From assembly GCA_002256935.1 (NCBI GenBank), contig NCGL01000040.1, positions 1 to 64,000 of the forward strand: a stretch of DNA of 64,000 nucleotides, given 5' to 3'. The notes beneath the pieces were generated by a model, which was given only the letters and a program-made list of their open reading frames with translations, was not told where the DNA came from and made no database searches. Source of the stretch: Bdellovibrio sp. 28-41-41 (lineage in GTDB: Bacteria; Bdellovibrionota; Bdellovibrionia; Bdellovibrionales; Bdellovibrionaceae). Positions within the stretch are counted from its first letter, which is position 1. Every line of letters starts with the position of its first letter. The position numbers and the translations under genes are program-made. This document shows positions 1,080 through 64,000 of this stretch, piece after piece.

Positions 1080-2330
1080 CTATTTTCTAGCGTCAATAAT
1101 ACGTTTCAATTTTCCCGTCCGGCCGTTTGTATCTAGATCCGTCATGTGCACGAACTCGATGGCAACTGGGTGAATCAATTTCTCATCAACAAGCTTTTTG
1201 ATCATTTCACGTTCTTGATAAATGTGTTCTTTGATCTGATTTTGTACATTCACAGACGGATTGGCCGCGGCGACTCTGATTACTAGTTGGTCCATGTTTT
1301 CAAAGTGCACTAGGCGCAATTGAAAACCCTTGATGTGGATAACATCGTGGAACGTGTTCAATAATGTATTCATATCTTCGTAATACACGGTCGCTGGTCC
1401 AACTCGGGCGCCCTCATCTGAGCGACCTAGGATTTTAAATTTTCTTTGATATGTAACAGATGAATTATCTATCCACATGGCTTTATCCCCAACCGGATAG
1501 CGAATAATTGGCATTAGTGATCTAGTTAAGTTCGTTAAAAACATTTTACCAGGGCGATTGGGCTCGCTGATAACTTCCAAAGTGTCTTCATCCAAGATTT
1601 CCATCACAGTGTAGTCAGTAAAAACGCGATGTTCTTGAATTTCGCATGATTCATCTAGATAGCCTAGCAGTCCACCGTCCACGCTTGCGTAACCGATAGA
1701 TTGAATCTGAACTTTAGGGAAAACCTCTTTAATAAAATTAATTTGATCTTCGTACATGCTCTCGCCGCCAAACAGAATTTTCGTCGGCGCATGTAGGTTA
1801 TTCGTTTGAGCATATTCAGATAGTTTCATCATGCTTGTTGGTACGCCGGCCCAAGTAGAAATCTCGAACGAATTCATCGTTTCCACAATGTGATTGAAAT
1901 CAGCACCACCGCTAAGGGGAAAGTGAACTACGTCCGAGTTTGATTTTTCAATCGATTTAGAAATAAACATAAAAGATGCATACAAATCACCGGCGTAAAA
2001 CATGTTCGCGATTTTTTCACCGGGCTTAAGGCCACCCTTGCGCATGCCTTCACCGAACGCGTGTGTGAAGAGTTCCCATTCTTCTAATGAAAAAAAAGAA
2101 AATTTAGGATTACCAGTGGTTCCGCCGCTTTGAAACACGATGCCACTAGATTGCGGCCCCGTTAAAACCTGGTTGTCTTTAATAGTATTGGCTTTCCAAA
2201 AAGTGGCGCTGTCTAATATCGGCAGTTGCGACAAGTCAGTAAATGTACCAACATTTTTGTACAAGTTCTTATAATAAGGCGACTGCTTGCGAGCAATATC
2301 AACAAGTTCATTTAATGAATACGTTTTCAT
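1080..2330 (-). CDS. PaaK-like acyl/aryl adenylate-forming enzyme
   Basis: 416 residues of the phenylacetate-CoA ligase (PaaK)/LuxE superfamily, which activate a carboxylic acid as acyl-AMP. The phosphate-binding motif SGGTTGNPK lies near residues 68-76. Later blocks LFGGESM, GYASVDGGLLGY and IIRYPVGDKAMW match the adenylate-binding core, and GRSDEGARVGPATVYYEDM starts the mobile C-terminal domain. The final gene of the tight lux-like operon: its ATG overlaps the stop of the LuxC-PaaK fusion by 4 bases (ATGA). The substrate cannot be read from the sequence; whether it makes a CoA thioester or passes acyl-AMP to another protein is open. Confidence 0.85.
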   Translation of the reverse strand: MKTYSLNELVDIARKQSPYYKNLYKNVGTFTDLSQLPILDSATFWKANTIKDNQVLTGPQSSGIVFQSGGTTGNPKFSFFSLEEWELFTHAFGEGMRKGGLKPGEKIANMFYAGDLYASFMFISKSIEKSNSDVVHFPLSGGADFNHIVETMNSFEISTWAGVPTSMMKLSEYAQTNNLHAPTKILFGGESMYEDQINFIKEVFPKVQIQSIGYASVDGGLLGYLDESCEIQEHRVFTDYTVMEILDEDTLEVISEPNRPGKMFLTNLTRSLMPIIRYPVGDKAMWIDNSSVTYQRKFKILGRSDEGARVGPATVYYEDMNTLLNTFHDVIHIKGFQLRLVHFENMDQLVIRVAAANPSVNVQNQIKEHIYQEREMIKKLVDEKLIHPVAIEFVHMTDLDTNGRTGKLKRIIDARK

Positions 2331-4885
2331 GTAAGTTCCCGATTATCAATAACATGCAAAAGCTTACCGCTAGCGGCACTTCGTGACATCTGTTCCGATG
2401 GCATAAGTTCGATTTTTACTTCTAAAACTTTCTCGTAATTTACAAGCTCATCTAAGTCATAATACGTATCTAGAAAAGCTTTAGTCACATCATCCATAGA
2501 GCCAATTCCGCGAACACTTAACGAGCGAAGAAATTCAGTTTCACTAGCATCAGAGGAAACAAGTAATCTCATCAGTTCTTTACTGCCAAATTTAGTTAAC
2601 ACAATTTGGAACTCGCTCGAAACTCCCAGTTTTTCCGAAAGAAGAGTTCCAATATGATTATAATTCAAGAAACTACCGGCTGCGCGGAAAATATCACCGT
2701 ATCGTCCGTGCAATTCAAAGCGCGGCGACTTGCGTCCGCACGGACATTCCGATTTTACCCATTTGCCAAGATCACCAACGTCGTATCGAAGTAAGCTTTG
2801 GTCTTCGCGTGAATGAGTAGAGAATATCAAACGGCCTATTTCGTCACCATCAACAGAATGCAGAGAATCTAATTTCAAAATTTCTAGATGATGGATGTTT
2901 TGATGCAAGTGATAGGTCTTATTGTCTGAATTGGGACATTGATATCCTAAAGGACCCATATCAACACTGCCGTAGCTTGCAGACTTAATAACCTGAACTC
3001 CAAAATCATTTTTCAATTTATCGATCTGCGCACTTGAAAACGCTTCGCCGCCGTAGAATATTTTTTCGATCATGCGATCTTGTGTGATCCCCTGGCGGGT
3101 ATGTTCAAGAAGCTGCATCAAGTATGACGGCATACCCATTAAAACATTAACATTATACTTCTTAATGATTTGGCCAACAAAATCGTAATCCATATAGGCC
3201 GACATTGGGAATTGAACGGCTTTTAGTTCCTCCATAATTGTAAAGAAACTTAAAAATCCGCCGTACAGGCCGCCGCCAAAGAACAAATTCATTGTTCTAT
3301 CTTTACGAGGATTCAAACCCGCTGCCATCAAGCCATTTGCGGCCGCTTGCATTTGCGTGTGGTAATCCACATATGTAAATTGCGAGATCTTAGAAGCGCC
3401 CGAACTGCCGCCGCTTTTAAAATACAACTGCGAGCTGGCTTGATCTGGAATATTTTGGAAATCCACTTTATCCATTAGTTTATCTGGAAATTGATCAAAG
3501 TGAATTTTACTAGCATGCAAGTCGTTTAATGTAGAAAAGGAAGCCAAGCTTTCAATTTTTGATTCCAAGCTGACTCTGCGAACATATCTGTTCAAGGCAA
3601 AATAACCATCATGAGGCTCGCCCATATAGCTATCTTGCATTCCGCCGTTAGAGCGAATGCGAGTGACGCCACTAGAATAAAACAGTCGGCTGAGTTCAAA
3701 TAACTCAGAGATATCACACGCAAGTCCTACAGTCTGAAGATATTTCTTCATAGGCCTAAATGTTTTCATCACAGCTGTGCGTTGAATTGGTTTAACCCAA
3801 ATTGTTTTATACAAAGGCGATGCGCGCAAAGACGATCTAGAATCGATCCAAATGCGCCATTGGCCATTACGATCTTCAATCACGTCAGTGTATTCAGAGA
3901 GCAAAGATTTTTCGGTTCTAACAATAAGGCCCATCTTTGTAATTTCGGCATTTTCCATTTCTGATGTATCGTTAGGAGCGTAATTGCCAACAACCGCATT
4001 CATGGATTGTCCTAATTGCGTCGAAAACGATCTTAAGTCTGCAAAATTAGCATCTTCCAAGTATACGCACTGGGGACTTGAGCACGCCTGCTGATTGAAA
4101 ACAAAAATATCGTGCACCACTTGTTTCACCGAATCCGGATTCTGCCATTCTTTTTTGGTCAGGTACGAGAAACTGATTTTATGTCCCCAATCAATAAATC
4201 GAGCCGATGCTGGAACGCTTTTCCTGATTTCATTGATGGCTTCTTCACCGCCCCAGGCAACAACGCCATCGGCATGTGAATAAAGGCGCTCAAGTAATGC
4301 TTTTTCTTTTGAACTAATATTCACTATGCATACGCGGTTTTTCCAGCACGCCGTTTGCGAAAAACTGGCGAACTCAGTAAAAAAATCTTGTGTGAATGAA
4401 CTTGATTGGTGGCTAAGTTTTAAAATATTAACATTTCCAGTCATCAAGCCTTCGAAGGCACTTAATACAGGAAGCGCGAAATCGTTACCGGATAAGACTT
4501 GTACGATCAATCCGAGAGGTTCCCATTTTTCGAAAATATTTCCATCAGTATTGACGCGTTTGCTAGTAAATGGAGTTAAGCTGCCAAGTTCGTTGCTGAT
4601 TTTAAACTTAATTTGTTTTTTAGAAATAAAATCTGCAATGGAATTAATAATTTCTTTTGCGATTTCAGAGCTAATACCGTCCTGAACAGTGAGTGTCGCG
4701 ATCAACCGAGATTGAATTTCTGATTCTGATTTTAATTGTTTTGAAAACGCATCACATGATTCAACAAATAAATCGGCATCGAAGTTTTCTATCAAAGCCG
4801 CTTCAATGCCACTCTCAAGTGTTTCGAGCTTTCCAATAAGTTCTTCATGACTGATAGTCTGACCGTACCAAAAGTGTGTTCTCAT
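2327..4885 (-). CDS. LuxC-type acyl reductase fused to a PaaK-like adenylation domain
   Basis: 852 residues. The N-terminal half (about 1-410) is a LuxC fatty acyl reductase of the aldehyde dehydrogenase fold. Supporting blocks are GLIVQVLSGNDFALPVLSAF and FNQQACSSPQCVYLE, whose C268 is the likely acyl-accepting cysteine. The C-terminal half (about 425-852) is a PaaK-like adenylation domain with FKSGGSSGASK (about 490), FYGGEAFSSAQ, YGSVDMGPLGYQ and CPCGRKSPRFELHGRYGD, including a CxC pair. In bacterial luminescence LuxC receives acyl groups from LuxE and reduces them to aldehyde with NADPH. Here that activity sits in one polypeptide with a second activating domain, so the product is probably an aldehyde. 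No luxA or luxB lies nearby. ATGA overlaps at both ends indicate coupled translation. Confidence 0.88.
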   Translation of the reverse strand: MRTHFWYGQTISHEELIGKLETLESGIEAALIENFDADLFVESCDAFSKQLKSESEIQSRLIATLTVQDGISSEIAKEIINSIADFISKKQIKFKISNELGSLTPFTSKRVNTDGNIFEKWEPLGLIVQVLSGNDFALPVLSAFEGLMTGNVNILKLSHQSSSFTQDFFTEFASFSQTACWKNRVCIVNISSKEKALLERLYSHADGVVAWGGEEAINEIRKSVPASARFIDWGHKISFSYLTKKEWQNPDSVKQVVHDIFVFNQQACSSPQCVYLEDANFADLRSFSTQLGQSMNAVVGNYAPNDTSEMENAEITKMGLIVRTEKSLLSEYTDVIEDRNGQWRIWIDSRSSLRASPLYKTIWVKPIQRTAVMKTFRPMKKYLQTVGLACDISELFELSRLFYSSGVTRIRSNGGMQDSYMGEPHDGYFALNRYVRRVSLESKIESLASFSTLNDLHASKIHFDQFPDKLMDKVDFQNIPDQASSQLYFKSGGSSGASKISQFTYVDYHTQMQAAANGLMAAGLNPRKDRTMNLFFGGGLYGGFLSFFTIMEELKAVQFPMSAYMDYDFVGQIIKKYNVNVLMGMPSYLMQLLEHTRQGITQDRMIEKIFYGGEAFSSAQIDKLKNDFGVQVIKSASYGSVDMGPLGYQCPNSDNKTYHLHQNIHHLEILKLDSLHSVDGDEIGRLIFSTHSREDQSLLRYDVGDLGKWVKSECPCGRKSPRFELHGRYGDIFRAAGSFLNYNHIGTLLSEKLGVSSEFQIVLTKFGSKELMRLLVSSDASETEFLRSLSVRGIGSMDDVTKAFLDTYYDLDELVNYEKVLEVKIELMPSEQMSRSAASGKLLHVIDNRELT

Positions 4886-6045
4886 ACGAAGTCCTTTAGT
4901 AGTTCGGCCGCTGCAATTGCGCAGCTTTTATTTTTGGAAATACCTGCACGGCCTAATATCTCGAACCAATCTGTTTTTAAGCCGCAGCCGCATGTTTCGC
5001 CTTTGTGTAAGATTGCAAGATCACCCATAGTAACGGCGTTAGCTGGAGCCGAAGTAATATAGGGGGCAATAAATTGCAAGAATCCGGGCTTATCATAACC
5101 AACAGAATCCAGAGTTTTTAGATCTCGGATTAATACTTTTGAATATACGGGTATGTGAAAGTGATGTTTACTGCATTCGATATACGGGATGCAATGCTCA
5201 ACGGAACCAAACCCATCACGCAAACGATGATTCGGTATTCCTAGCATCTCCTCAGCTAGAGCATAGAGTTCCGATTTATTAATTTCTTGATTAGCATAAC
5301 CCTTCCAGCCACCACCTAAGAAAACGAGAGATTCCGGAGATAGTTTTAGAGGTTTGTATTTTAATTCCTTCATCCGTTGAAGAGTAAAATAGAAAAATGA
5401 AGGGAAGCCAAAAATACGTACTGGCAATTCCTGAATTTCGTATTCCTGCAATGTTTTGATGGCTCCGAAAACGTCAAAATCGTGGCCGCCTTTGCCAGTT
5501 AATTTTAGCGTAAATTCAGCGCGGTTCACAGGGGCGTACTTTGTGAGGTAGTTATCGGTGAACGCAGTACCTAACTTAGAATCAACTTCTGTTTGGTAGG
5601 TGTATAGTAGGTAATTCGTTTTCTTACCGGGGGTAATCCATCCGTAATAGTCATAAATAAAATCAACCATTTGTTGAGCGCAGCCCAAGCTCCATTCATC
5701 AAAGAACATTTGAGATTTCTGTCCGGTAGTTCCTGACGACGTTAAACTGATATGAACACTTTCATCTGATACTGACTTGATAGAGTGATATTTGAAAAAC
5801 TCAGCGGGAATGCTGGGTATTTTAACCAGGTCACCATCCCATTTATTGATATCAAAGTTAGAGTCTTTTAAGAACTGACGATAAAATGTCGATTTCTCTT
5901 GATGCCAACGAATAACTTCTTTCATCGCTTGAATAAATAGAGAATCGTTTTCCAAAGATATCGAATAGGGACTTGTGATTTTACAAATCTTTTCTACTGA
6001 GGCTAATAGAGCACGACTAGGTGGAAAAAGTTCTTTATTTGTCAT
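4882..6045 (-). CDS. LuxE-type acyl-protein synthetase
   Basis: 387 residues matching the LuxE acyl-protein synthetase family, which adenylates an acyl group, holds it on its own cysteine and hands it to LuxC. The adenylation motif SSGTTGQKS is at 103-111, and FGFPSFFYF, FLGGGWKG and DGFGSVEHCIPYIEC follow. The C-terminal segment KNKSCAIAAAELL carries C375, at the place of the transferable acyl cysteine in this family. Length is normal. It lies between the GNAT gene (11-base overlap) and the LuxC fusion (4-base overlap). The partnership with that LuxC is inferred from the family and the coupling. Confidence 0.88.
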   Translation of the reverse strand: MTNKELFPPSRALLASVEKICKITSPYSISLENDSLFIQAMKEVIRWHQEKSTFYRQFLKDSNFDINKWDGDLVKIPSIPAEFFKYHSIKSVSDESVHISLTSSGTTGQKSQMFFDEWSLGCAQQMVDFIYDYYGWITPGKKTNYLLYTYQTEVDSKLGTAFTDNYLTKYAPVNRAEFTLKLTGKGGHDFDVFGAIKTLQEYEIQELPVRIFGFPSFFYFTLQRMKELKYKPLKLSPESLVFLGGGWKGYANQEINKSELYALAEEMLGIPNHRLRDGFGSVEHCIPYIECSKHHFHIPVYSKVLIRDLKTLDSVGYDKPGFLQFIAPYITSAPANAVTMGDLAILHKGETCGCGLKTDWFEILGRAGISKNKSCAIAAAELLKDFV

Positions 6046-7210
6046 CGAATACTCCTAGGACATCCAAATGCATCTGTTTCCACAAATCCACATACTGATC
6101 AATATAAGGTTTAAATGTTTTCTCGATCTGCATGCCGCGGAAATTTAATGGTTCCATTGAACGTGACATCAACACTAGATCCATAAACTTACCGTCGTAT
6201 TCAAGCATTGCAGGATAGATTGCCGACGGTAAGAAGTTTACGTCCAAAAGGGTTTCCAGCGATAAAATACTATCCATCGCCATTAAAATTTCTACGTAAG
6301 AAACACCGTAATCATTCAACTGCTGTAGCAACGGTCTTAGGCGGCCGGCCATTGAATAAAATGGGGCTGTTGCCGTAATCAAAGCGCAATAGCCATCTGA
6401 TTTACTTAGGTATCCGTATATATCTACCTCACCATTTTTAGATGCCAATAATAAGTTTGGTTCATGGAATGGAAAGAAAACATCAAAGGGATCTTTAAAT
6501 GTTTGTGAGAATTTACGTTTTACAAAATCAGGAGCCAAGATAATTTCAAATTCTAAATGTTCACCGCTTGGCTTAGGCCGTACCATTTTTAACAGGCGGG
6601 GCGTCGGGTGTGGTGATTTGATGTATTTCTCGCTAGCTTTAAAGATGGGCCCGAGTGCTTCCGGAACTTCTTCTACTCGCGAGCGTTTTTTTAATACTTC
6701 AGGATCGTGTTTTGCCATCAAAGTTAGCGTCTCGTAATTAGCTAGGCGGTGAGCGTTGGGAAAGATACCCAGAGGCTTAAATTTATTTTTAATAAACACC
6801 AGCTGCGGACTTATACTTAGAGTTCTTGTCGTTGCATAAATCGAATGTACGATCTTGTTATCCTTCATCAAAAAATCGGAGGCATGGTTAAGTAGAATCG
6901 ACGCTAGTCCTTTACTTTGATAATAAGGATGAGTCACAAACCCTTCGGCGCGGGCAATTTTGAAAAACACATCGACTTCAAATACAGCCGACGCGCACAA
7001 GGTATTTTTATCTGGATCGTGCGCGACTAACCAAAGACTGTCTTTGTCTTGGATTATTTTCTGCATGACCACTCGGTCCGTGCCTAGCGCTAGTGGGTAA
7101 TTGCTGCCGTATATAGTAAAATACAACGTCAGCAAATCCTGAATATCAGAAACCCTCGCTCGGCGCATAACTAAGCCGCCATCTATTTTAATAACTTCAT
7201 CTTGCTTCAT
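6035..7210 (-). CDS. GNAT acetyltransferase-domain protein with a long C-terminal extension
   Basis: 391 residues. Residues 1-170 form a GNAT N-acyltransferase domain: MRRARVSDIQDLLTLY opens it and EGFVTHPYYQSKGLASILLNHA is the acetyl-CoA-binding motif A, in the QxxGxA form. Residues 190-391 form a second region of alternating strands and helices, possibly a degenerate second GNAT domain. Substrate unknown. GGAG lies 8 bases before the ATG; the ATG overlaps the MFS stop (ATGA) and its own end overlaps the LuxE start. It probably modifies an intermediate or product of the lux-like operon, which is inference from position only. Confidence 0.78.
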   Translation of the reverse strand: MKQDEVIKIDGGLVMRRARVSDIQDLLTLYFTIYGSNYPLALGTDRVVMQKIIQDKDSLWLVAHDPDKNTLCASAVFEVDVFFKIARAEGFVTHPYYQSKGLASILLNHASDFLMKDNKIVHSIYATTRTLSISPQLVFIKNKFKPLGIFPNAHRLANYETLTLMAKHDPEVLKKRSRVEEVPEALGPIFKASEKYIKSPHPTPRLLKMVRPKPSGEHLEFEIILAPDFVKRKFSQTFKDPFDVFFPFHEPNLLLASKNGEVDIYGYLSKSDGYCALITATAPFYSMAGRLRPLLQQLNDYGVSYVEILMAMDSILSLETLLDVNFLPSAIYPAMLEYDGKFMDLVLMSRSMEPLNFRGMQIEKTFKPYIDQYVDLWKQMHLDVLGVFDDK

Positions 7211-8445
7211 TTGAAGATCTCCTGACCGAAACGGCGGAAAGTAAAAAAAGATATAAATACAAATATGACTAACAAAACCCCGGCAACCCGTCCAACTGCC
7301 GAGATAGCAACTGACTGCTGAAGCAAACCCAGCAGGGCGAGTGAAAACGGCAGAGTCGCCGTGCTAATTAAATTCACAAGACTCATCACCTTAGGAACTT
7401 CGTTCGCTTTTGGTTGAGTTTGCAAAATATTGATAATTAAAACATTGGCTAGGCCCAAAGAAAAACCCATCAAAAACAAAGCAACCGAACAGACTTGCAA
7501 ATTCGTCGCAAATGTAAAGGAAAGAAACGCAAGACTAAGACCCACTAAAAACGCCCACGTCCAAAACAAGGTGCGCGTTTGAATGGTAATAAAACTTAAA
7601 ATGGCGCCGCCAAGTAAAATACCTGCGCCGAGTAGAGTTTCTAAAATTGCTAGCGAGTTAAATGAGTTTCCAAATAAATCCTTAGCCATTGTCGGCATTA
7701 AAACTTGAAGAGGGCTTAACAACAAATTCATCACTAAAAATACAATCAGCATAACACCAATGATGTTCTTAGTTTGGAATACGCTAATGGAATTCGCGGC
7801 AGCCACCTCGTTGCTAGAGCGTACTGAATTCGAAGACGACTTAGTTACCAGAGATACCGCATAAGCTGAAGCGATATAACTAACTCCGGCAATGATAAAC
7901 AACCCACTCAAGCCAAATTGATTAAACGCAAATAAGCCAAGTACCGGCCCAAGAATCGTAGCAAACGATGTCACTGTTGAAAGTTTCGCCGTTAGTTTTT
8001 GAACATCATCGGATTCCTTGATCTCAACGGCCAAAGACAAAATCGCAGGATTGAAAAACGCTGAAAAAATATTAGATAGAAAAACGGAAATAAACAAAAG
8101 CCACAATACATGACCACTGCCGCTCGAGGGATGCAGCCATTCAGGAAACCTAAGTACTAAACCAAATGCAAAAACATAAATAAATCCCCGAGCTAAGTCA
8201 GAATACAAAACCGTTTTAAGCGCGCTTAGACGATTGATCATCAAACTTGAATGTTTGATTAAAAGCGCGTGAGGCAAACCACCAACAACCAAATACCAAA
8301 TCAGATACTGTTCGCCAAAACTAGATGTGATGAACCAAATCAGACCCAGCTGAACCATGCGATCCGACACTTGCGAGAGCGTTTGCCCCACAAGTAAAAA
8401 TATATCATCCAGCTGTTTTGATCGTTTAATTGCCATTGTATTCAT
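7207..8445 (-). CDS. Major facilitator superfamily transporter
   Basis: 412 residues with about twelve hydrophobic segments, including 50-70, 85-105, 112-135, 165-187, 225-245, 268-290 and 375-400. The overall plan resembles MFS permeases of the EntS/MFS_3 type (DUF894-like). First gene of the lux-like operon, so it is the likely exporter of the operon's product or importer of its precursor. The ATG at 8445 has only a weak GGAT upstream. A 27-base inverted repeat 43 to 69 bases upstream may be its operator. Confidence 0.82.
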   Translation of the reverse strand: MNTMAIKRSKQLDDIFLLVGQTLSQVSDRMVQLGLIWFITSSFGEQYLIWYLVVGGLPHALLIKHSSLMINRLSALKTVLYSDLARGFIYVFAFGLVLRFPEWLHPSSGSGHVLWLLFISVFLSNIFSAFFNPAILSLAVEIKESDDVQKLTAKLSTVTSFATILGPVLGLFAFNQFGLSGLFIIAGVSYIASAYAVSLVTKSSSNSVRSSNEVAAANSISVFQTKNIIGVMLIVFLVMNLLLSPLQVLMPTMAKDLFGNSFNSLAILETLLGAGILLGGAILSFITIQTRTLFWTWAFLVGLSLAFLSFTFATNLQVCSVALFLMGFSLGLANVLIINILQTQPKANEVPKVMSLVNLISTATLPFSLALLGLLQQSVAISAVGRVAGVLLVIFVFISFFTFRRFGQEIFK

Positions 8446-8487
8446 AGTTTTTATCCAGCGTACAAGGTAGCGAATTTTTAGAATTTG

Positions 8488-8514
8488 GTTAGTGTTGGTG
8501 GTTTAGACACTAAC
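8488..8514. promoter_or_regulatory. Inverted repeat upstream of the lux-like operon, candidate operator
   Basis: Perfect 8-base arms GTTAGTGT and ACACTAAC are separated by 11 bases, centred about 56 bases before the MFS start codon. There is no plus-strand gene upstream that it could terminate. The spacing resembles operators of dimeric regulators, for example of LysR type. No regulator gene is adjacent. Confidence 0.4.
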
Positions 8515-8614
8515 TTTTTCAATCGGATATAGGTGCGATTCTATTGGCCCTCGCATAGGAGGCAGAGACGATTTTTAGACTGTCAAAGTATTATTCAGCG
8601 ATCTACGGCGTTAT

Positions 8615-8670
8615 TAAAGTAGACTTGACTCTACTTTGCACACATGTAGAGTGGAGTCATGTCTACTTTA
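8615..8670 (+). promoter_or_regulatory. Promoter and nested palindromes over the start of the DUF4143 ATPase
   Basis: TTGACT (8625-8630), 16 bases, then TAGAGT (8647-8652) reads as a -35/-10 pair placing transcription start at or beside the ATG at 8659. No usable Shine-Dalgarno exists, so the mRNA looks leaderless. The promoter lies inside an imperfect inverted repeat: TAAAGTAGAC at 8615 is matched by GTCTACTTTA ending at 8670, and the arms continue for 17 bases with one mismatch. A smaller palindrome, AAAGTAGA-N6-TCTACTTT, covers 8616-8637. Repression by a dimeric protein, possibly the ATPase itself, is inference. Confidence 0.5.
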
Positions 8671-9810
8671 CAAAGGTACCTCAAAAATCATATTATTACC
8701 GATTTGTCTGAAAAAATGGTTTTTTTAGGCGGACCAAGACAGGTGGGAAAAACCACGTTTTCTCAGTCGTTGATTGCTCACTACTCCGATGGGCATCCTG
8801 CTTATCTAAATTGGGATGATATTGAAGATCGTAGAAAGATTCAAAAAGGAAATTTTCCTAAAGACGCGAGATTAATTGTTCTAGATGAAATTCATAAATT
8901 TAGCAAATGGCGTGGTCTTGTAAAAGGTTTCTATGATAAACTTAAAAATACGTATCAATTTTTGATTACAGGGTCGGCCAGACTTGATTATTATCGCAAA
9001 GGGGGGGACTCTCTTTTGGGCCGATATCACTACTATCGGATGCATCCACTTAGCCTTCCGGAAGTGGTGAGTTCTTGGCAATCCAAAGACGTGAATAAAA
9101 AAATGACGGATCTTTTAGAATTTGGTGGATTTCCGGAGCCCTATTTGAAGCAGGATGCAACCTCTTTAAACCGCTGGCACAGGCAGCGGCAGGAAAGAAT
9201 TGTTTATTCAGATATTCGCGACTTAGAAAACGTCAAAGAGATTTCAAATATTGAACTTTTGATTCAGGCCCTCCCGGAAAGAGTAGGGTCACCACTATCT
9301 CGCAAAAATTTAGCCCAAGACCTTCAGGTCGATTTTAAAACCGTAGAAAAGTGGATCACTATTCTTGAAAATGTTTATTACTGCTATCGCATTTCGCCTT
9401 ATGGCCCACCGAAAATAAAAGCAGTGAAGAAGGAACAAAAAATATACTTTTGGGATTGGAGCGAGCTAGAGAATACGGGTTCAAAGTGGGAAAATTTTGT
9501 GGCCAGTCATCTGTTGAAGTACTGCCATCTTATTGAAGATACCGAGGGCATTAAGATGGAAATTCGCTTTCTACGCGATGTCGCCGGTCGAGAAATCGAT
9601 TTCGTTGTTCTCAAAAAAGGCAAGCCACTATTTGCAGTGGAATGTAAAACCGGAGAAACAAAAACCTCACCACATTTGAAATACTTTTCCGAAAGGACAA
9701 ATATTCCGATGTTTTATCAAGTGCATCAGGGGACCCGAAGCCAAATGGTATCCGATCGAATTTCAGTACTACCATTCCCTGAGTTTTGCAAAGATCTGAA
9801 TTTGATTTAA
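8659..9810 (+). CDS. AAA (AAA_14) ATPase with DUF4143 domain
   Basis: 383 residues of the widespread AAA_14-DUF4143 family, whose function is poorly defined (defence, toxin-antitoxin and housekeeping roles have been proposed). Walker A GGPRQVGKTT (about 25-34) and Walker B LIVLDEIHKF (about 72-81) are intact, followed by the sensor block FLITGSARLD. The C-terminal region has EIDFVV and FAVECKTGE (about 315-335), which resemble a PD-(D/E)XK nuclease fold. Stand-alone gene with an apparently leaderless promoter. Full length for the family. Confidence 0.85.
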   Translation: MSTLQRYLKNHIITDLSEKMVFLGGPRQVGKTTFSQSLIAHYSDGHPAYLNWDDIEDRRKIQKGNFPKDARLIVLDEIHKFSKWRGLVKGFYDKLKNTYQFLITGSARLDYYRKGGDSLLGRYHYYRMHPLSLPEVVSSWQSKDVNKKMTDLLEFGGFPEPYLKQDATSLNRWHRQRQERIVYSDIRDLENVKEISNIELLIQALPERVGSPLSRKNLAQDLQVDFKTVEKWITILENVYYCYRISPYGPPKIKAVKKEQKIYFWDWSELENTGSKWENFVASHLLKYCHLIEDTEGIKMEIRFLRDVAGREIDFVVLKKGKPLFAVECKTGETKTSPHLKYFSERTNIPMFYQVHQGTRSQMVSDRISVLPFPEFCKDLNLI

Positions 9811-10622: not shown

Positions 10623-12263
10623 CTACTGCTGCGCTTGTTTCTTCAAGCGTTCAGATTTGTCTAGGTAATATTCCCAAGATCCGTCATAGATACTCACTTT
10701 GTTTTTATCCACTTCGAATACTCGAGTCGTAATTTCGCGCAAGAAATAGCGATCATGGCTTACGATGATCACTGTTCCTGGGAAATTCTTAACGGCATCA
10801 AGCAATACTTCACGCGAAACGATATCCAAGTGATTCGTCGGCTCATCTAGAACTAATAAATTCACCGGTCGCGCTAAGATACACGCTAAAACCACGCGGC
10901 TTTTTTCGCCGCCGGATAGAACCGAAATTTTCTTATCCGCTTCTTCACCCGAAAACTTAAATGCACCAAGCAATGTTCTGATTTGGCCCATGCCCGCTGT
11001 TGGCAAATGACTATGAACTTCTTCAACGATGGTGCTGTTGGGATCAAGGACATCGAGTGAGTTCTGGCTAAAGTAGCCTAGCTCTATGCTGGCACCCAGT
11101 TGCATGTTGCCTTCAGAGGCTTCTGTTTGTCCTGAGATAATTTTTAGCAATGTAGATTTGCCCGCACCGTTCACGCCGACAACCGCCACGCGATCCAATC
11201 GTTTAACAAGTCCACTGGCTTGAGAGAAAACTAATTTATCTTTTCCTTCGGTGCCTTTCCAAACTTTGGTTAAGTTTGAAAACTTAACGACTTCGTCCCC
11301 ACCACGCGGAGGAACCGGCCATTCAAATTGAATTGTCTTTTCTTCCGCTGGGATTTCGATGCGATCAATTTTTTCTAATTTCTTAACTCGAGATTGAACT
11401 TGAGCCGCATGGGATGCGCGAGCCGCAAAGCGAGCAATGAATTCCTCTTCTTTTGCCAGCATGTCGTCCTGGCGTTTAGCGGCCGCAATCAGTTGTTCCA
11501 TGCGGATTGCTTTTTCTTTTTCGTAGTAATCGTAATTACCCGAGTAAACAGTGATGGTTTGGAATGCTACTTCGACAATTTTGCTAACCAGGCGATTCAT
11601 GAACTCGCGATCATGGCTTGTCATCAAGATCGAGCCTTTAAACTGGCGCAGCCATTCTTCTAACCAAACGATAGATTCTAAATCCAAGTGATTCGTCGGT
11701 TCATCCATTAATAGAACATCTGGATTCAGCAAAAGGATTTTAGCCAGGGCGATACGCATTTTCCAACCACCGCTGAAGCTCTCTGTCGGACGATTGTAAT
11801 CTTCGGGGCCGATACCTAATCCCGTCAGGATTTCCTGAGCACGGTTTTCCAGGTCATAGCCACCCAGGCGTTCGAAATCGGCCTGCATTTCGCCGTACTT
11901 ATCTAGAACCTTCATCATTTCGTCTTCACCCAAATCTGGGTCAGACAAGCGGGCCTCTAAACGTGCGATTTCTTTTTGTAATTCGCTGATTTTGCCGGCG
12001 GATGAGATCACTTCTTGAAGGGCCGTTTTGCCGCCCATTTCCTCGATATTCTGAGAAAAATAGCCCACGACTGTTTTATCAGATTTACTGATCGTTCCGC
12101 CATCAACACCCTCTTCGCCGACGATAATACGGAAAACCGTACTTTTACCTGCGCCGTTAGGGCCAACTAGGCCGATTTTTTCACCGGGGTTAATCTGGAA
12201 GGAAGCGTTCTTATATAGAACTTTGTTCCCGTACTGCTTTGTAATAGAAGATAAATGGATCAT
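10623..12263 (-). CDS. ABC-F family ATPase (Uup/YheS-like)
   Basis: About 546 residues with two ABC ATPase cassettes and no membrane segments. ABC-F proteins act on ribosomes or as translation factors. First cassette: Walker A GPNGAGKST, signature FSGGWKMR, Walker B LLMDEPTNHLD. Second: GVNGAGKST, LSGGEKSRV and LLVLDEPTNHLD. A charged linker lies between them. I place the start at the ATG 12261-12263 because the family begins M-I-x-L-x-x-I-T-K-x-Y-G; a TTG ten codons further upstream (12293) is possible. No strong ribosome binding site at either. Subfamily is not certain. Confidence 0.88.
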   Translation of the reverse strand: MIHLSSITKQYGNKVLYKNASFQINPGEKIGLVGPNGAGKSTVFRIIVGEEGVDGGTISKSDKTVVGYFSQNIEEMGGKTALQEVISSAGKISELQKEIARLEARLSDPDLGEDEMMKVLDKYGEMQADFERLGGYDLENRAQEILTGLGIGPEDYNRPTESFSGGWKMRIALAKILLLNPDVLLMDEPTNHLDLESIVWLEEWLRQFKGSILMTSHDREFMNRLVSKIVEVAFQTITVYSGNYDYYEKEKAIRMEQLIAAAKRQDDMLAKEEEFIARFAARASHAAQVQSRVKKLEKIDRIEIPAEEKTIQFEWPVPPRGGDEVVKFSNLTKVWKGTEGKDKLVFSQASGLVKRLDRVAVVGVNGAGKSTLLKIISGQTEASEGNMQLGASIELGYFSQNSLDVLDPNSTIVEEVHSHLPTAGMGQIRTLLGAFKFSGEEADKKISVLSGGEKSRVVLACILARPVNLLVLDEPTNHLDIVSREVLLDAVKNFPGTVIIVSHDRYFLREITTRVFEVDKNKVSIYDGSWEYYLDKSERLKKQAQQ

Positions 12264-60258: not shown

Positions 60259-63200
60259 ATGGGAAAAATTAAGGTTATTAAGGGCATTGCCCTATTGTTG
60301 CTATATGTTGGATTGGTTATTCAGCCATTTACGTTTGCGTTTGGTGCTGATACTGACACGACAGGAAAGACCGTCCCTAAAAAGATCATCATTCTTTATA
60401 ATTCAATTGGTATGGGTCACATCAGTGCCTCTAAAGCCATTGAAGCATCCATTAAAGAAAAAGATCCTACGGCTGTGGTTATCCAAAAGAACATTTTGGA
60501 TTTCTTCAATCCACAATCTTTAGTTAAGCTTAATGAGAAGTTGTTCTGGTACATTGTAAAAAATCATCCAGACACATTCGATAAAATGTTCCGTAACAAA
60601 ATGGAAAGAGGCAGAAACGTAACTGATCTTGCTGCTATGTCGACGTCATATAATATCGATGCCGTTCGAAACTGGTTAAATCTTGAAGGCCCTTCTTCAG
60701 TCATCGCTACCCATTATGGTGCTGCGGAAGTTCTGTCAGTGCTACGGGCTCAAGGCTTGTTGAAAACAACTAACATTTCTTGGCTACATACAGATTATTT
60801 CACTGGCTATTTCCCTCGCATAGCCAATGCAATGGATCGTGCGTTTGTTGGATCAACTTCAGTAAGAGATTCGTTTGTTAAATCTGGTGCTGACGAAAGT
60901 AAAGTAATTGCAACCGGTATCCCTATAAATCCTGCGGTTTTTTCGCCAATTGATAGAGAGGCTTATCTTAAAAGTATAAACTTGGATCCAAATATCCGCA
61001 CAGTTGTTATCGCGACTGGTGGTGAAGGTATCGGCGACTATCCTAAAATTGTAAAATCAATTGTTGATTCATATAAAGAGCCAATTCAAATCGTAGCCGT
61101 ATGCGCGAAGAACGTTGCAAACGCGGAAGCGTTAAATAAACTAGCACCAAGCCTTGGTGGTAACGTTACTTTGAAAGTATTCTCTGGATTGATCCCCAAT
61201 CAAGATTTATTGAACTACATCAAGTCAGCTGACGTTTACGTTACTAAGAGTGGTGGATTGTCTCCAACAGAAGCATTCGCTATCGGTAAACCAACTATCT
61301 TGTTAGATATCTATGGTGGTCATGAGCGTGATAATGCGAATCGTTTTGAAAATGACAGATTAGCTGTTATTAACCGTGACCAATCAGTTATTGGTGAGCA
61401 AGTTAATATGCTACTTGCGGATAAAGAATTACAAAAAGAAATGGCTAAAGAGCAATTAGCGTTTAGAAATTCTTTTAACATCAATGAAATCAGCGACTAC
61501 GCTCTAAAGCCAAAAGATCTTTCTGGCGTTGCTGGCGACGCCAATTTCTACCTAGGTGTAGAAGGCGGAACGAGAGCTGAAGGAACTAAAGAGGCCTTAG
61601 CTAAACTAGATAGGCAAAGTCCAGCGGATGTCGAAGTCATTCTAAGCTACCCGGCTTCGTACCGTGGTAAACATTTTGATGGACCGGGATCAAACCCATT
61701 CGGTCACATCGGTGTACGTGTAGGCGATAAAGTCTACACTGCAAATCACGTCGCTAAACCGGAACATGACAAAGATTTGATGTACACGACATCAATGGAC
61801 GACTACTTGTATGGCATCGAGCGCCCAACATCGAATGCAGAGCACACATCATCTTTTGGTCAAGCGTACGGCCGTGACATAGTTTCTCTTCGTGTCGCGG
61901 GTTTATCGAAAGAACAACTGGCAGCGATGCAACGTGAAGCGGAACTTATCAATCAAGAATATCGTGATGGCAAAACTACATGGATCGCTAAAACTGATAA
62001 CTGCGTAAACTTCGGTTTTAGAATTTTGAATGCGGGTGGATTTGCACCTCCAAGATTGGCTGAACGATTCGCTAAAAAAATAGCGTTTCCATTAGACATG
62101 TTTGATTCCTATGTTAAGTACGTACAATCTGACTTGAACCTGAAATCTGAAATCGTATCGTATACTCAGGTTGCAGGTTCACAAAATATGTATCGTACGG
62201 CTCGTTTTCCATTATCGTTTTATCAATTGAAACGCTCGTTGAAAAACCTATTTTTCAGTAAAAACAACGACGAAGTTGAAAATCGCGTTACAAAAAGAAT
62301 TGCTTTCTATTCAGGTAACAAAAAAGCGCAACTAGAAGATTCGTTAATTGATCACCAATCTTTCACGTCAGAGGAAAAAGCGAATCAACCAATAGAAGCT
62401 CAAGCGATCTCTAAAATCGAGAGCGATCTCGAGAAATCTTGGGAAAGTTTGAAAGCTCAAGAATTGACTTCCGATAAACTGCGATCAGAAATGGCTGCGG
62501 GAATGGCCACACTAAGTGATGCGGCTAAATCTGCGGTTATAGCTGGTAACGTTGCGAAACTGGCTGAAGGTGCAGAAAAGGTTAGAGCAAACCAGCTAGT
62601 AGCTAAATTACAACAAATTGATAACGCTCAAAGATTGCACCAAGAACTATACGATTTAGCGGCGGTTGCTGAATTAGATTACTTCATGAAAGAAATCTTG
62701 GTTACAGTAGAAGACTATCAATTAAAAATGGTACGTGGTCGCAAGGATGCCCAAGCGACTAAGTTATCAAATATGTACGCTGACTTAAAAGAAGAATACC
62801 AAATATATAAAAAATATCGTTCTCAGTACGGTCAAGCTAAAGACGGTCCGACTAGAACTCGTTCGTCTCGTGCGATGTTTTTATTAGGTAAGACATACTT
62901 TGACTCTGTTGCTGGTAAGAAGCCTAACGAAACAGATATTTTAGAATCTGGTTTGTGGATCAGAATGAAAAAGTCTGCAAAGCATTACGGCGCCCTTGTT
63001 AGAACATTTATCAGGGTACTTCCATCGTTTGGCAAAACTATATTTTACATGATTGCAAAGCCAAACACGGCTCCAGGCGTGGCTCCAACAACTGAAGGGA
63101 TTAACAAGATGTTAAAGAAATTCGGTGACGAATTGGGTATTAAAGTCGATGTGCAAGGTCGCGAGAATTTACCGACGCCAAAAGCGTTAGGTACAGACAA

Positions 63201-63903
63201 AGTGATTACCCTTGTGACGCCAACTCACAGAGATGCAACGCTGGATGCTGTCGTAATGTCGAATCTTGGATTAGGAAAAGCATTACTAGTGATGGCGCCC
63301 GATCAGTTCTTACCTAAAAAGCTAGCTGATAAAATGGACGCGGTTGATTCGATTATCGGTGTAGGTCGTGGTTCAAACTTGCCTATTAATAAAATTATCG
63401 AGCAACTTAGCAACAAAAAATCGGACACTATCGTGATCTACCCAGAGGGTTCGACCAATGCTGGTTTAGAAGAATCTCGTCCAGTAAGAACTAAGTTCTC
63501 TGAAGGACTAATCAGAGCGTTGTTAGAGCAAGGATATAAAGTAAATATCGTACCAGTTACTTACGAAGGCACTGGCCGTTTCGGTCACGAGATTAGTAAT
63601 GGTAACTTGTTTACTTGGCAGGACAAGGGCTTAAAACTAAAAGCCGTAGTTAATCCAGTTATCGATGATACGACTGTTAGAACTATGTTTAACAACTTTG
63701 GTTCGCAAGCCGTATCTAGAATGATCCGTGGTGATTGGTTCGCAACGTTTGGTTCAAGTTCTAAAACAGTAAACGGTTTGGTGAGGCCTCAAGAAGCTAC
63801 GTCGCGTTTGCAAGCATACGGAATTCCGGTAAGAAGTTTACCTGCTGTGAAGAAGGTGTCGCCTTCAGCTAACATGTGCTTAAGCTTTTACGGTGGAAAG
63901 TAA
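60259..63903 (+). CDS. Three-domain protein: GT28 glycolipid glycosyltransferase, papain-like domain, PlsC-like acyltransferase
   Basis: 1214 residues; AGAGGA lies five bases before the ATG. A signal peptide or anchor (1-30) comes first. Residues 41-415 resemble MGDG synthase/diacylglycerol glucosyltransferases: ILYNSIGMGH, SWLHTDYF, and SGGLSPTEAFAIGKPTILLD with GGHERDNA. Residues about 430-600 look papain-like: FGHIGV (H483) and TDNCVNFG (C582) as a possible catalytic pair. Residues about 700-830 are helical and coiled-coil-like. Residues about 955-1190 resemble PlsC acyltransferases: THRDATLD (H990) and YPEGSTN (1061-1067), though the first motif is HX5D instead of HX4D. A secreted or anchored UDP-sugar transferase is unexpected. 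Family-level calls are firm for the outer domains, weaker for the middle. Confidence 0.78.
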   Translation: MGKIKVIKGIALLLLYVGLVIQPFTFAFGADTDTTGKTVPKKIIILYNSIGMGHISASKAIEASIKEKDPTAVVIQKNILDFFNPQSLVKLNEKLFWYIVKNHPDTFDKMFRNKMERGRNVTDLAAMSTSYNIDAVRNWLNLEGPSSVIATHYGAAEVLSVLRAQGLLKTTNISWLHTDYFTGYFPRIANAMDRAFVGSTSVRDSFVKSGADESKVIATGIPINPAVFSPIDREAYLKSINLDPNIRTVVIATGGEGIGDYPKIVKSIVDSYKEPIQIVAVCAKNVANAEALNKLAPSLGGNVTLKVFSGLIPNQDLLNYIKSADVYVTKSGGLSPTEAFAIGKPTILLDIYGGHERDNANRFENDRLAVINRDQSVIGEQVNMLLADKELQKEMAKEQLAFRNSFNINEISDYALKPKDLSGVAGDANFYLGVEGGTRAEGTKEALAKLDRQSPADVEVILSYPASYRGKHFDGPGSNPFGHIGVRVGDKVYTANHVAKPEHDKDLMYTTSMDDYLYGIERPTSNAEHTSSFGQAYGRDIVSLRVAGLSKEQLAAMQREAELINQEYRDGKTTWIAKTDNCVNFGFRILNAGGFAPPRLAERFAKKIAFPLDMFDSYVKYVQSDLNLKSEIVSYTQVAGSQNMYRTARFPLSFYQLKRSLKNLFFSKNNDEVENRVTKRIAFYSGNKKAQLEDSLIDHQSFTSEEKANQPIEAQAISKIESDLEKSWESLKAQELTSDKLRSEMAAGMATLSDAAKSAVIAGNVAKLAEGAEKVRANQLVAKLQQIDNAQRLHQELYDLAAVAELDYFMKEILVTVEDYQLKMVRGRKDAQATKLSNMYADLKEEYQIYKKYRSQYGQAKDGPTRTRSSRAMFLLGKTYFDSVAGKKPNETDILESGLWIRMKKSAKHYGALVRTFIRVLPSFGKTIFYMIAKPNTAPGVAPTTEGINKMLKKFGDELGIKVDVQGRENLPTPKALGTDKVITLVTPTHRDATLDAVVMSNLGLGKALLVMAPDQFLPKKLADKMDAVDSIIGVGRGSNLPINKIIEQLSNKKSDTIVIYPEGSTNAGLEESRPVRTKFSEGLIRALLEQGYKVNIVPVTYEGTGRFGHEISNGNLFTWQDKGLKLKAVVNPVIDDTTVRTMFNNFGSQAVSRMIRGDWFATFGSSSKTVNGLVRPQEATSRLQAYGIPVRSLPAVKKVSPSANMCLSFYGGK

Positions 63904-63939
63904 TTTAAAAATTTATTGAATCGCTGAATTTACAGACTG

Positions 63940-63970
63940 GGACTGCCTGAAAAGGTAGTCCTTGTATTTT
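63940..63970 (+). terminator. Rho-independent terminator after the three-domain gene
   Basis: Stem GGACTGCC/GGTAGTCC (one G-U pair), loop TGAAAA, then TTGTATTTT. Starts 37 bases after the stop codon. Confidence 0.75.
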
Positions 63971-64000
63971 GTAAGGAACACGGAGTGCTCGCTATTCGCA

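Follow-up and report, generated by a model that had tools for sequence, protein, structure and literature searches.

An exported GT28, permuted NlpC/P60 and PlsC-like fusion protein of Bdellovibrio and its terminal CxxFY motif

The first 64,000 nt of contig NCGL01000040.1 from Bdellovibrio sp. 28-41-41 (assembly GCA_002256935.1), hereafter the window, contain near their 3′ end a gene for a 1214-residue protein in which a glycosyltransferase family 28 (GT28) domain, a papain-like domain and a PlsC-like acyltransferase domain follow a signal sequence. We regard it as an evenly balanced proposition that this protein is a Sec-exported lipid-remodelling enzyme, with the prey cell as its likeliest site of action, and that it belongs to a set of exported proteins tagged with a short cysteine-containing motif, CxxFY. 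The signal sequence and the three domains had been recognised in the original prediction, and Pfam matches, AlphaFold2 (AF2) models compared by Foldseek, and the conserved pre-sequences of relatives agree with it; the terminal tag, an exported gene cluster lying mostly outside the window and widespread cytosolic relatives had been overlooked. The fusion protein combines known domains in a new architecture.

Domains and export signal of the fusion protein

The open reading frame (ORF) starts with ATG, with AGAGGA a few bases 5′ of it. The same three-domain fusion is found in eight other Bdellovibrionota proteins (33–52 % identity), and the ORF is not a chance one because full-length relatives exist in other genomes. 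Its signal sequence is MGKIKVIKGIALLLLYVGLVIQPFTFAFG, followed by AD after the cleavage-like site, as expected for Sec export. All 11 Bdellovibrionota proteins that share the GT28-plus-papain core have an equivalent pre-sequence stopping just ahead of the GT28 domain; these pre-sequences vary, yet positive charge precedes the hydrophobic core and a cleavage-like site follows it, and in relative L023 a lipobox takes the place of the cleavage site, predicting a lipoprotein. Signal-peptide calls were heuristic, combined with conservation over these 11 proteins, and gene calls were heuristic too.

The GT28 domain matched Pfam families PF06925 (5.6e-14, 53 bits, cut-off 25) and PF04101 (29.3 bits, cut-off 22) and the structures 9wde and 4wyi in the PDB. 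It also matched the NCBIfam model for diglucosyl diacylglycerol synthase, PRK13609 (6e-32), at 111 bits, short of the 500 bits that define an equivalog. The catalytic-type His54 is kept in 42 of the 43 rows with a letter at this position, L002 having Asn, and the donor-site residues Lys330, Gly332-333, Glu338 and Glu356, the last forming with His355 part of a GHE motif, are present in all 44 rows. A cytosol-facing site with access to UDP-sugars, as expected of GT28 enzymes, was not what we found for the Bdellovibrionota core proteins, 11 of 11 carrying an export signal. A metal-ABC binding protein was also retrieved from the PDB, weakly (E 0.04), and was taken to be a chance match.

The middle domain had no match in a Pfam search. 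Its AF2 model, built with 32 relatives (pLDDT 93), retrieved a single credible PDB match, TseH (6v98; E 1.1e-3, prob 0.99, TM 0.36/0.51), an effector of the type VI secretion system (T6SS) of Vibrio cholerae, the remaining Foldseek matches having prob ≤ 0.2. The papain-like domain proper covers residues 425–640, and both its fold and the position of His483 ahead of Cys582 are those of the circularly permuted NlpC/P60 type. Phospholipase activity is reported for the permuted members Tox-Act1 and TseH, and lipoprotein N-acyltransferase activity for DUF4105 (Lnb) (PMC12994826). Because these relatives act on lipids, the domain is best read as a putative lipid acyl hydrolase or transferase rather than a peptidase.

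Against PF01553 (cut-off 23), the last domain scored 23.3 bits in the whole protein and 25 bits in the C-terminal half alone, and the AF2 model of this half (pLDDT 82) matched Thermotoga PlsC (5kym; E 1.7e-5, prob 1.00), with further matches to GPAT1, LpxM and PatA. The per-domain structure prediction proposed earlier thus groups the middle domain with TseH and the last one with Thermotoga PlsC. The canonical HX4D motif was not found; the non-standard HX5D motif that had been pointed out is genuine and not an error, because its spacing is conserved in all 13 aligned relatives, the motif His being missing in L008 alone. We predict this domain to be a relative with the lysophospholipid acyltransferase (LPLAT) fold, not a canonical PlsC. 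Unconserved catalytic residues and a fusion confined to this assembly had been named as grounds for abandoning the original prediction; neither applies, as His54, His483, Cys582 and HX5D are conserved among orthologues and the same architecture is present in several other genomes.

Distribution, paralogues and gene neighbourhood

Relatives were recovered by an alignment scan of genome contigs, a single-sequence scan of the same contigs having given none. Full-length fusions occur within the genus in G002, G003 (two copies) and G005, with a copy in G004 cut by the contig end, and in more distant Bdellovibrionota (L003/L021, L010/L024 and L023). A two-domain form without PlsC is found at L011 and L012, from two genomes of genus g6, and in G001 (L007/L056). 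PlsC-like proteins that have both a signal peptide and a Cys tail are standalone in L009 and L020 and joined to a PNK3P phosphatase in L016. Other exported GT28 architectures were seen in Bdellovibrionota and Oligoflexia (L014:301-2829, minus strand; L062:355-2952, plus strand; L065:5932-8142, plus strand), that of L014 being a fusion of GT28 and phospholipase D.

Outside Bdellovibrionota, the GT28-plus-papain core, of about 700–930 amino acids, has a broad, patchy distribution (Pseudomonas, Stenotrophomonas, Zoogloea, Aromatoleum, Rhodoferax, Syntrophaceae, Acidobacteriota and others), and its genes are often near genes for ABC1 kinase, patatin, VTT/DedA or RND-type (efflux) proteins. Export signal and C-terminal Cys tail were both present in 11 of 11 Bdellovibrionota core proteins, whereas none of the 33 others had either (the N-terminus of L052 is cut) and all of them lack the acyltransferase domain; in some of the latter (the L026 group) arginines follow a membrane segment at the N-terminus, that is, a cytosol-facing anchor. 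In a tree made with a quick method and containing some long branches, the 33 outside rows separated from the 11 Bdellovibrionota rows with SH-aLRT support of 100. Export, tail and, mostly, the PlsC domain accompany the phylum Bdellovibrionota. The two-domain gene without signal peptide at L026–L064, from many phyla and often from hydrocarbon-site bacteria, looks like a mobile envelope-stress locus.

The two fusion genes of G003 are adjacent, divergent paralogues, L002 and L008 (G003:C6:57292-65140). In L002 the His of the GT28 domain is gone (GH to GN) and the papain-like and PlsC residues are intact, and in L008 the GT28 His is intact and the papain-like His and Cys are replaced by Gln and Ser and the PlsC His by Gln. 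This complementary loss of active sites is as expected of three separable activities.

The fusion gene heads a cluster in which its neighbours, coding for an Lnb-like protein, a glycoside hydrolase family 1 (GH1) protein and a neutral ceramidase, all have signal peptides (Table 1). The same set recurs in G003, L021 and L024, the last two genes of L024 being judged from the sequence start only, and ceramidase-like and GH1 genes are also found in L022 and L045. The Lnb-like neighbour and the middle domain of the fusion have a common GH...NC core (hhalign prob 85, E 6.5e-6). In L021, an exported UTP-glucose-1-phosphate uridylyltransferase-like protein (L021:3708-5669, minus strand; PF01704, 1.1e-13), with CSLLF directly after its signal peptide, is encoded divergently from the fusion gene, a pair in which the maker of a donor and the user of that donor would both be exported and encoded side by side. 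Family GH1 includes SFR2, which remodels the product of the plant GT28 enzyme monogalactosyldiacylglycerol (MGDG) synthase, a lead rather than a test.

Table 1. Features of the fusion gene and its cluster (positions are those of the window, continued along the contig where stated).
Feature	Position	Strand	Basis
Whole ORF, exported GT28 - permuted NlpC/P60 - PlsC-like fusion, 1214 aa	60259..63903	+	Sequence, Pfam, AF2/Foldseek
Predicted signal peptide, residues 1-29, cleavage-like site after AFG	60259..60345	+	Sequence; equivalent pre-sequences in relatives
GT28 / MGDG-synthase-like domain, residues 40-417	60376..61509	+	PF06925, PF04101, PRK13609, PDB 9wde/4wyi, conservation
Papain-like domain (permuted NlpC/P60 type) with the segment after it, residues 425-700	61531..62358	+	AF2, Foldseek TseH 6v98
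His483 of NPFGH, putative catalytic	61705..61707	+	Kept in 32/33 rows
Cys582 of DNC, putative catalytic	62002..62004	+	Kept in 32/33 rows
Long helical arm, residues 701-939	62359..63075	+	AF2 secondary structure
PlsC / LPLAT-fold domain, about residues 940-1185	63076..63813	+	PF01553; Foldseek 5kym, 8e4y, 5knk, PatA
HX5D motif, His990 to Asp996 (canonical HX4D is one residue shorter)	63226..63246	+	Spacing in 13/13 rows
Terminal CxxFY tag (CLSFY, residues 1207-1211)	63877..63891	+	Sequence; conservation; enrichment counts
3′ end of exported Lnb-like (permuted NlpC/P60) neighbour	63913..64000	-	Gene spans 63913-65079 on contig
Exported GH1 gene	65212-66459	+	Contig beyond window; family read from relatives
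Exported neutral ceramidase gene	66490-67875	+	Contig beyond window; family read from relatives

The terminal CxxFY tag

The fusion protein ends in NMCLSFYGGK, and Cys1207 is invariant among its relatives, including one without PlsC. We counted the motif over 1.98 Mb from G003 plus 0.34 Mb from the window genome. At the C-terminus, 12 ORFs had C-x-x-F-Y inside their last 22 residues, all among the 808 with a signal peptide (0 of the 1230 others), compared with 0.45 expected by tail shuffling and a maximum of 4 in 2000 shuffles. Just after the signal peptide it was found in 8 ORFs, one of them resembling a membrane segment, versus 0.58 expected and a maximum of 5. The interior of exported ORFs had only 3 cases in 226,533 residues, and control spacings gave 0–2. 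The absence of any other mature Cys from 13 of the 20 tagged ORFs makes an intramolecular disulfide unlikely for most of them, and the tag is not a mere family trait of the GT fusions, since 8 of those 12 C-terminal ORFs belong to neither the GT-fusion nor the PlsC relatives. A criterion of any Cys among the 14 final residues lacked specificity.

The tagged proteins include a tandem AAA+ protein with M41 protease, Fic, tandem cytidine deaminase, DnaJ, GDPD, transglutaminase and SLOG-like proteins, and unknowns. Several of the folds found among tagged proteins work with ATP, UTP or partners from the cytosol, and no role for them in a periplasm is evident. The AAA+ protein (L096:12139-15489, plus strand; G003:C6:259139-262489) is an exported product of 1116 aa with two AAA+ modules, a ClpB D2-small domain and an FtsH-type M41 protease, whose sole Cys lies in its C-terminal CLHFY tag. 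Terminal tags were likewise seen on an exported cytidine deaminase (CKQFY; L025:345-1568, minus strand), a Fic protein (CDDFY; L108:1000-2163, plus strand) and a DnaJ-domain protein (CRSFY; L188:8875-10269, minus strand), and an exported SelO protein has the terminal Cys tag CRKIV, within SCRKIVN (L024:829-2661, plus strand). Tagged genes also cluster: in L056, about 7 kb (1963-9095, plus strand) code for four CxxFY-tailed exported proteins (an unknown family, a C92 papain, GT28 plus papain, and Lnb_N), with a tailed hydrolase at 11107.

Other genera show variants of the motif (C-x-x-L-F, C-E-A-V-F or C-K/R-x-I) on proteins of the same types, the SelO tag of L024 being one example. When g6 genomes were scanned with DNA patterns for CExxF tails, the patterns were in several cases some 2–3 fold over the reversed control, but their in-frame share was not raised. 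A literature search, mostly outside subscription journals, found neither the tag motif nor the fusion described.

A tag shared by exported, normally cytosolic enzymes hints at their dispatch to prey cells, and it is possibly a new kind of signal. Tentatively, and at well short of an even chance, we propose that an undescribed Bdellovibrionota tag (CxxFY in this genus, C-x-x-L-F-like in relatives), at the mature N- or C-terminus, might direct Sec-exported enzymes of this class (glycosyltransferase, UDP-sugar pyrophosphorylase, AAA+ protease, J-domain, Fic, SelO, deaminase and acyltransferases) into prey, reprogramming its lipids, proteins and nucleotides.

Proposed function, site of action and known counterparts

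In the mechanism that we propose, the GT28 domain would move a hexose from a UDP-sugar to diacylglycerol or a lipid like it. The permuted NlpC/P60 domain would cleave membrane lipids, or transfer their acyl chains, by way of a cysteine acyl-enzyme, and the PlsC-like domain would acylate a lyso-lipid or glycolipid. Together with the exported Lnb-like protein, GH1 protein and neutral ceramidase, the fusion could turn membrane lipid into glycolipid, or remodel it, in the prey cytoplasm or at the prey cytoplasmic membrane, and the CxxFY tag would assign it to a set of exported proteins handled together. Prey is the likeliest site because UDP-sugars and activated acyl donors are unexpected in the predator's own periplasm. 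The earlier argument that such donors would be available only inside another cell gains indirect support from the exported pyrophosphorylase-like protein of L021 and from the tag on exported proteins of ATP- or nucleotide-using types. The simplest account is that this lineage exports tagged enzymes that act in prey, the fusion being the member for glycolipid synthesis and acyl remodelling. Several points weigh against it: the prey inner membrane is a further barrier for a Sec-exported protein; the UDP-sugar enzyme adjoins the fusion in a single relative (L021) and not in the window genome; GH1, ceramidase and GDPD proteins do not need a cytosol and suit any extracytoplasmic site; the sugar and acceptor of the GT28 domain are guesses, its score being far under the diglucosyl diacylglycerol synthase cut-off; and the tag might instead serve envelope attachment or have a structural role.

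Attachment by the tag is part of an alternative that we consider unlikely but still substantial, an enzyme of the predator's own envelope whose acyl domains would use phospholipid donors, as Lnb does, and whose GT28 domain would use a lipid-linked or released sugar donor. Lnb-type enzymes do operate in the periplasm, the GH1 and ceramidase partners need no nucleotide, the predicted lipoprotein L023 would be envelope-attached, and the single Cys of most tagged proteins would suit an attachment site; but GT28 enzymes take UDP-sugars, an exported maker of which adjoins the fusion in L021, and it is hard to see what tagged AAA+/M41, DnaJ and Fic types would do in a periplasm devoid of ATP. The tag on chaperone, AAA+ and AMPylator types would also go unexplained if the fusion worked in the space of the bdelloplast, at the outside of the prey cytoplasmic membrane, with donors leaking from permeabilised prey. 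This location, which we think improbable, dispenses with translocation into the prey cytoplasm, as Sec export would suffice if the predator outer membrane were also crossed, and Sec signal peptides are enough to secrete a reporter from B. bacteriovorus (PMC12622784); prey cytoplasmic components, however, remain compartmentalised from Bdellovibrio (PMC2797640).

The original prediction had also allowed for an uncleaved signal anchor, with the three domains facing the predator cytosol as an ordinary membrane-bound lipid-assembly enzyme, an arrangement resembling the anchored relatives of the L026 group outside the phylum. Export is favoured instead, because differing pre-sequences retain the charge pattern and cleavage-like site, L023 has a lipobox and the gene sits in a cluster whose members all have signal peptides; the C-terminal CxxFY, moreover, occurs only alongside signal peptides, and we give the anchor very little credence.

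The fusion bears on the question of how predators of the Bdellovibrio type reach past the prey inner membrane to act on the cytoplasm: its cytosol-type donors, exported lipid-enzyme neighbours and, in L021, exported donor maker render prey lipid remodelling directly testable. If CxxFY were a true sorting signal, prey-directed predator proteins could be listed straight from the genome.

Each part of the protein has known counterparts. The GT28 domain resembles the MGDG synthase MGD1 (4wyi) and the bacterial UgtP-like diacylglycerol glucosyltransferase (9wde) in the match of its N- and C-domains and in the motifs GH, KSGG...E and GHE..N; unlike these cytosolic or inner-leaflet enzymes, it is predicted to be exported, is joined to two acyl-handling domains and scores well under the UgtP equivalog cut-off. 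The middle domain has in common with TseH, Tox-Act1 and DUF4105/Lnb the fold, the His-then-Cys order and the GH...NC motifs, but it lacks a Pfam or close sequence match and is part of a larger enzyme, with no immunity gene or T6SS link seen for the fusion. The last domain shares the fold, a PEGS motif and the His and Asp with PlsC (5kym), GPAT1, LpxM and PatA, from which it differs by HX5D in place of HX4D, by its probable export and by the long helical arm that precedes it. MYXO-CTERM, PEP-CTERM, GlyGly-CTERM and the C-terminal domain of the type IX secretion system are known C-terminal sorting tags and, like CxxFY, short conserved terminal sequences on unrelated exported proteins, MYXO-CTERM also with a Cys; CxxFY differs from them in spanning about 9 residues, without a membrane segment or beta domain, and in occupying either mature terminus.

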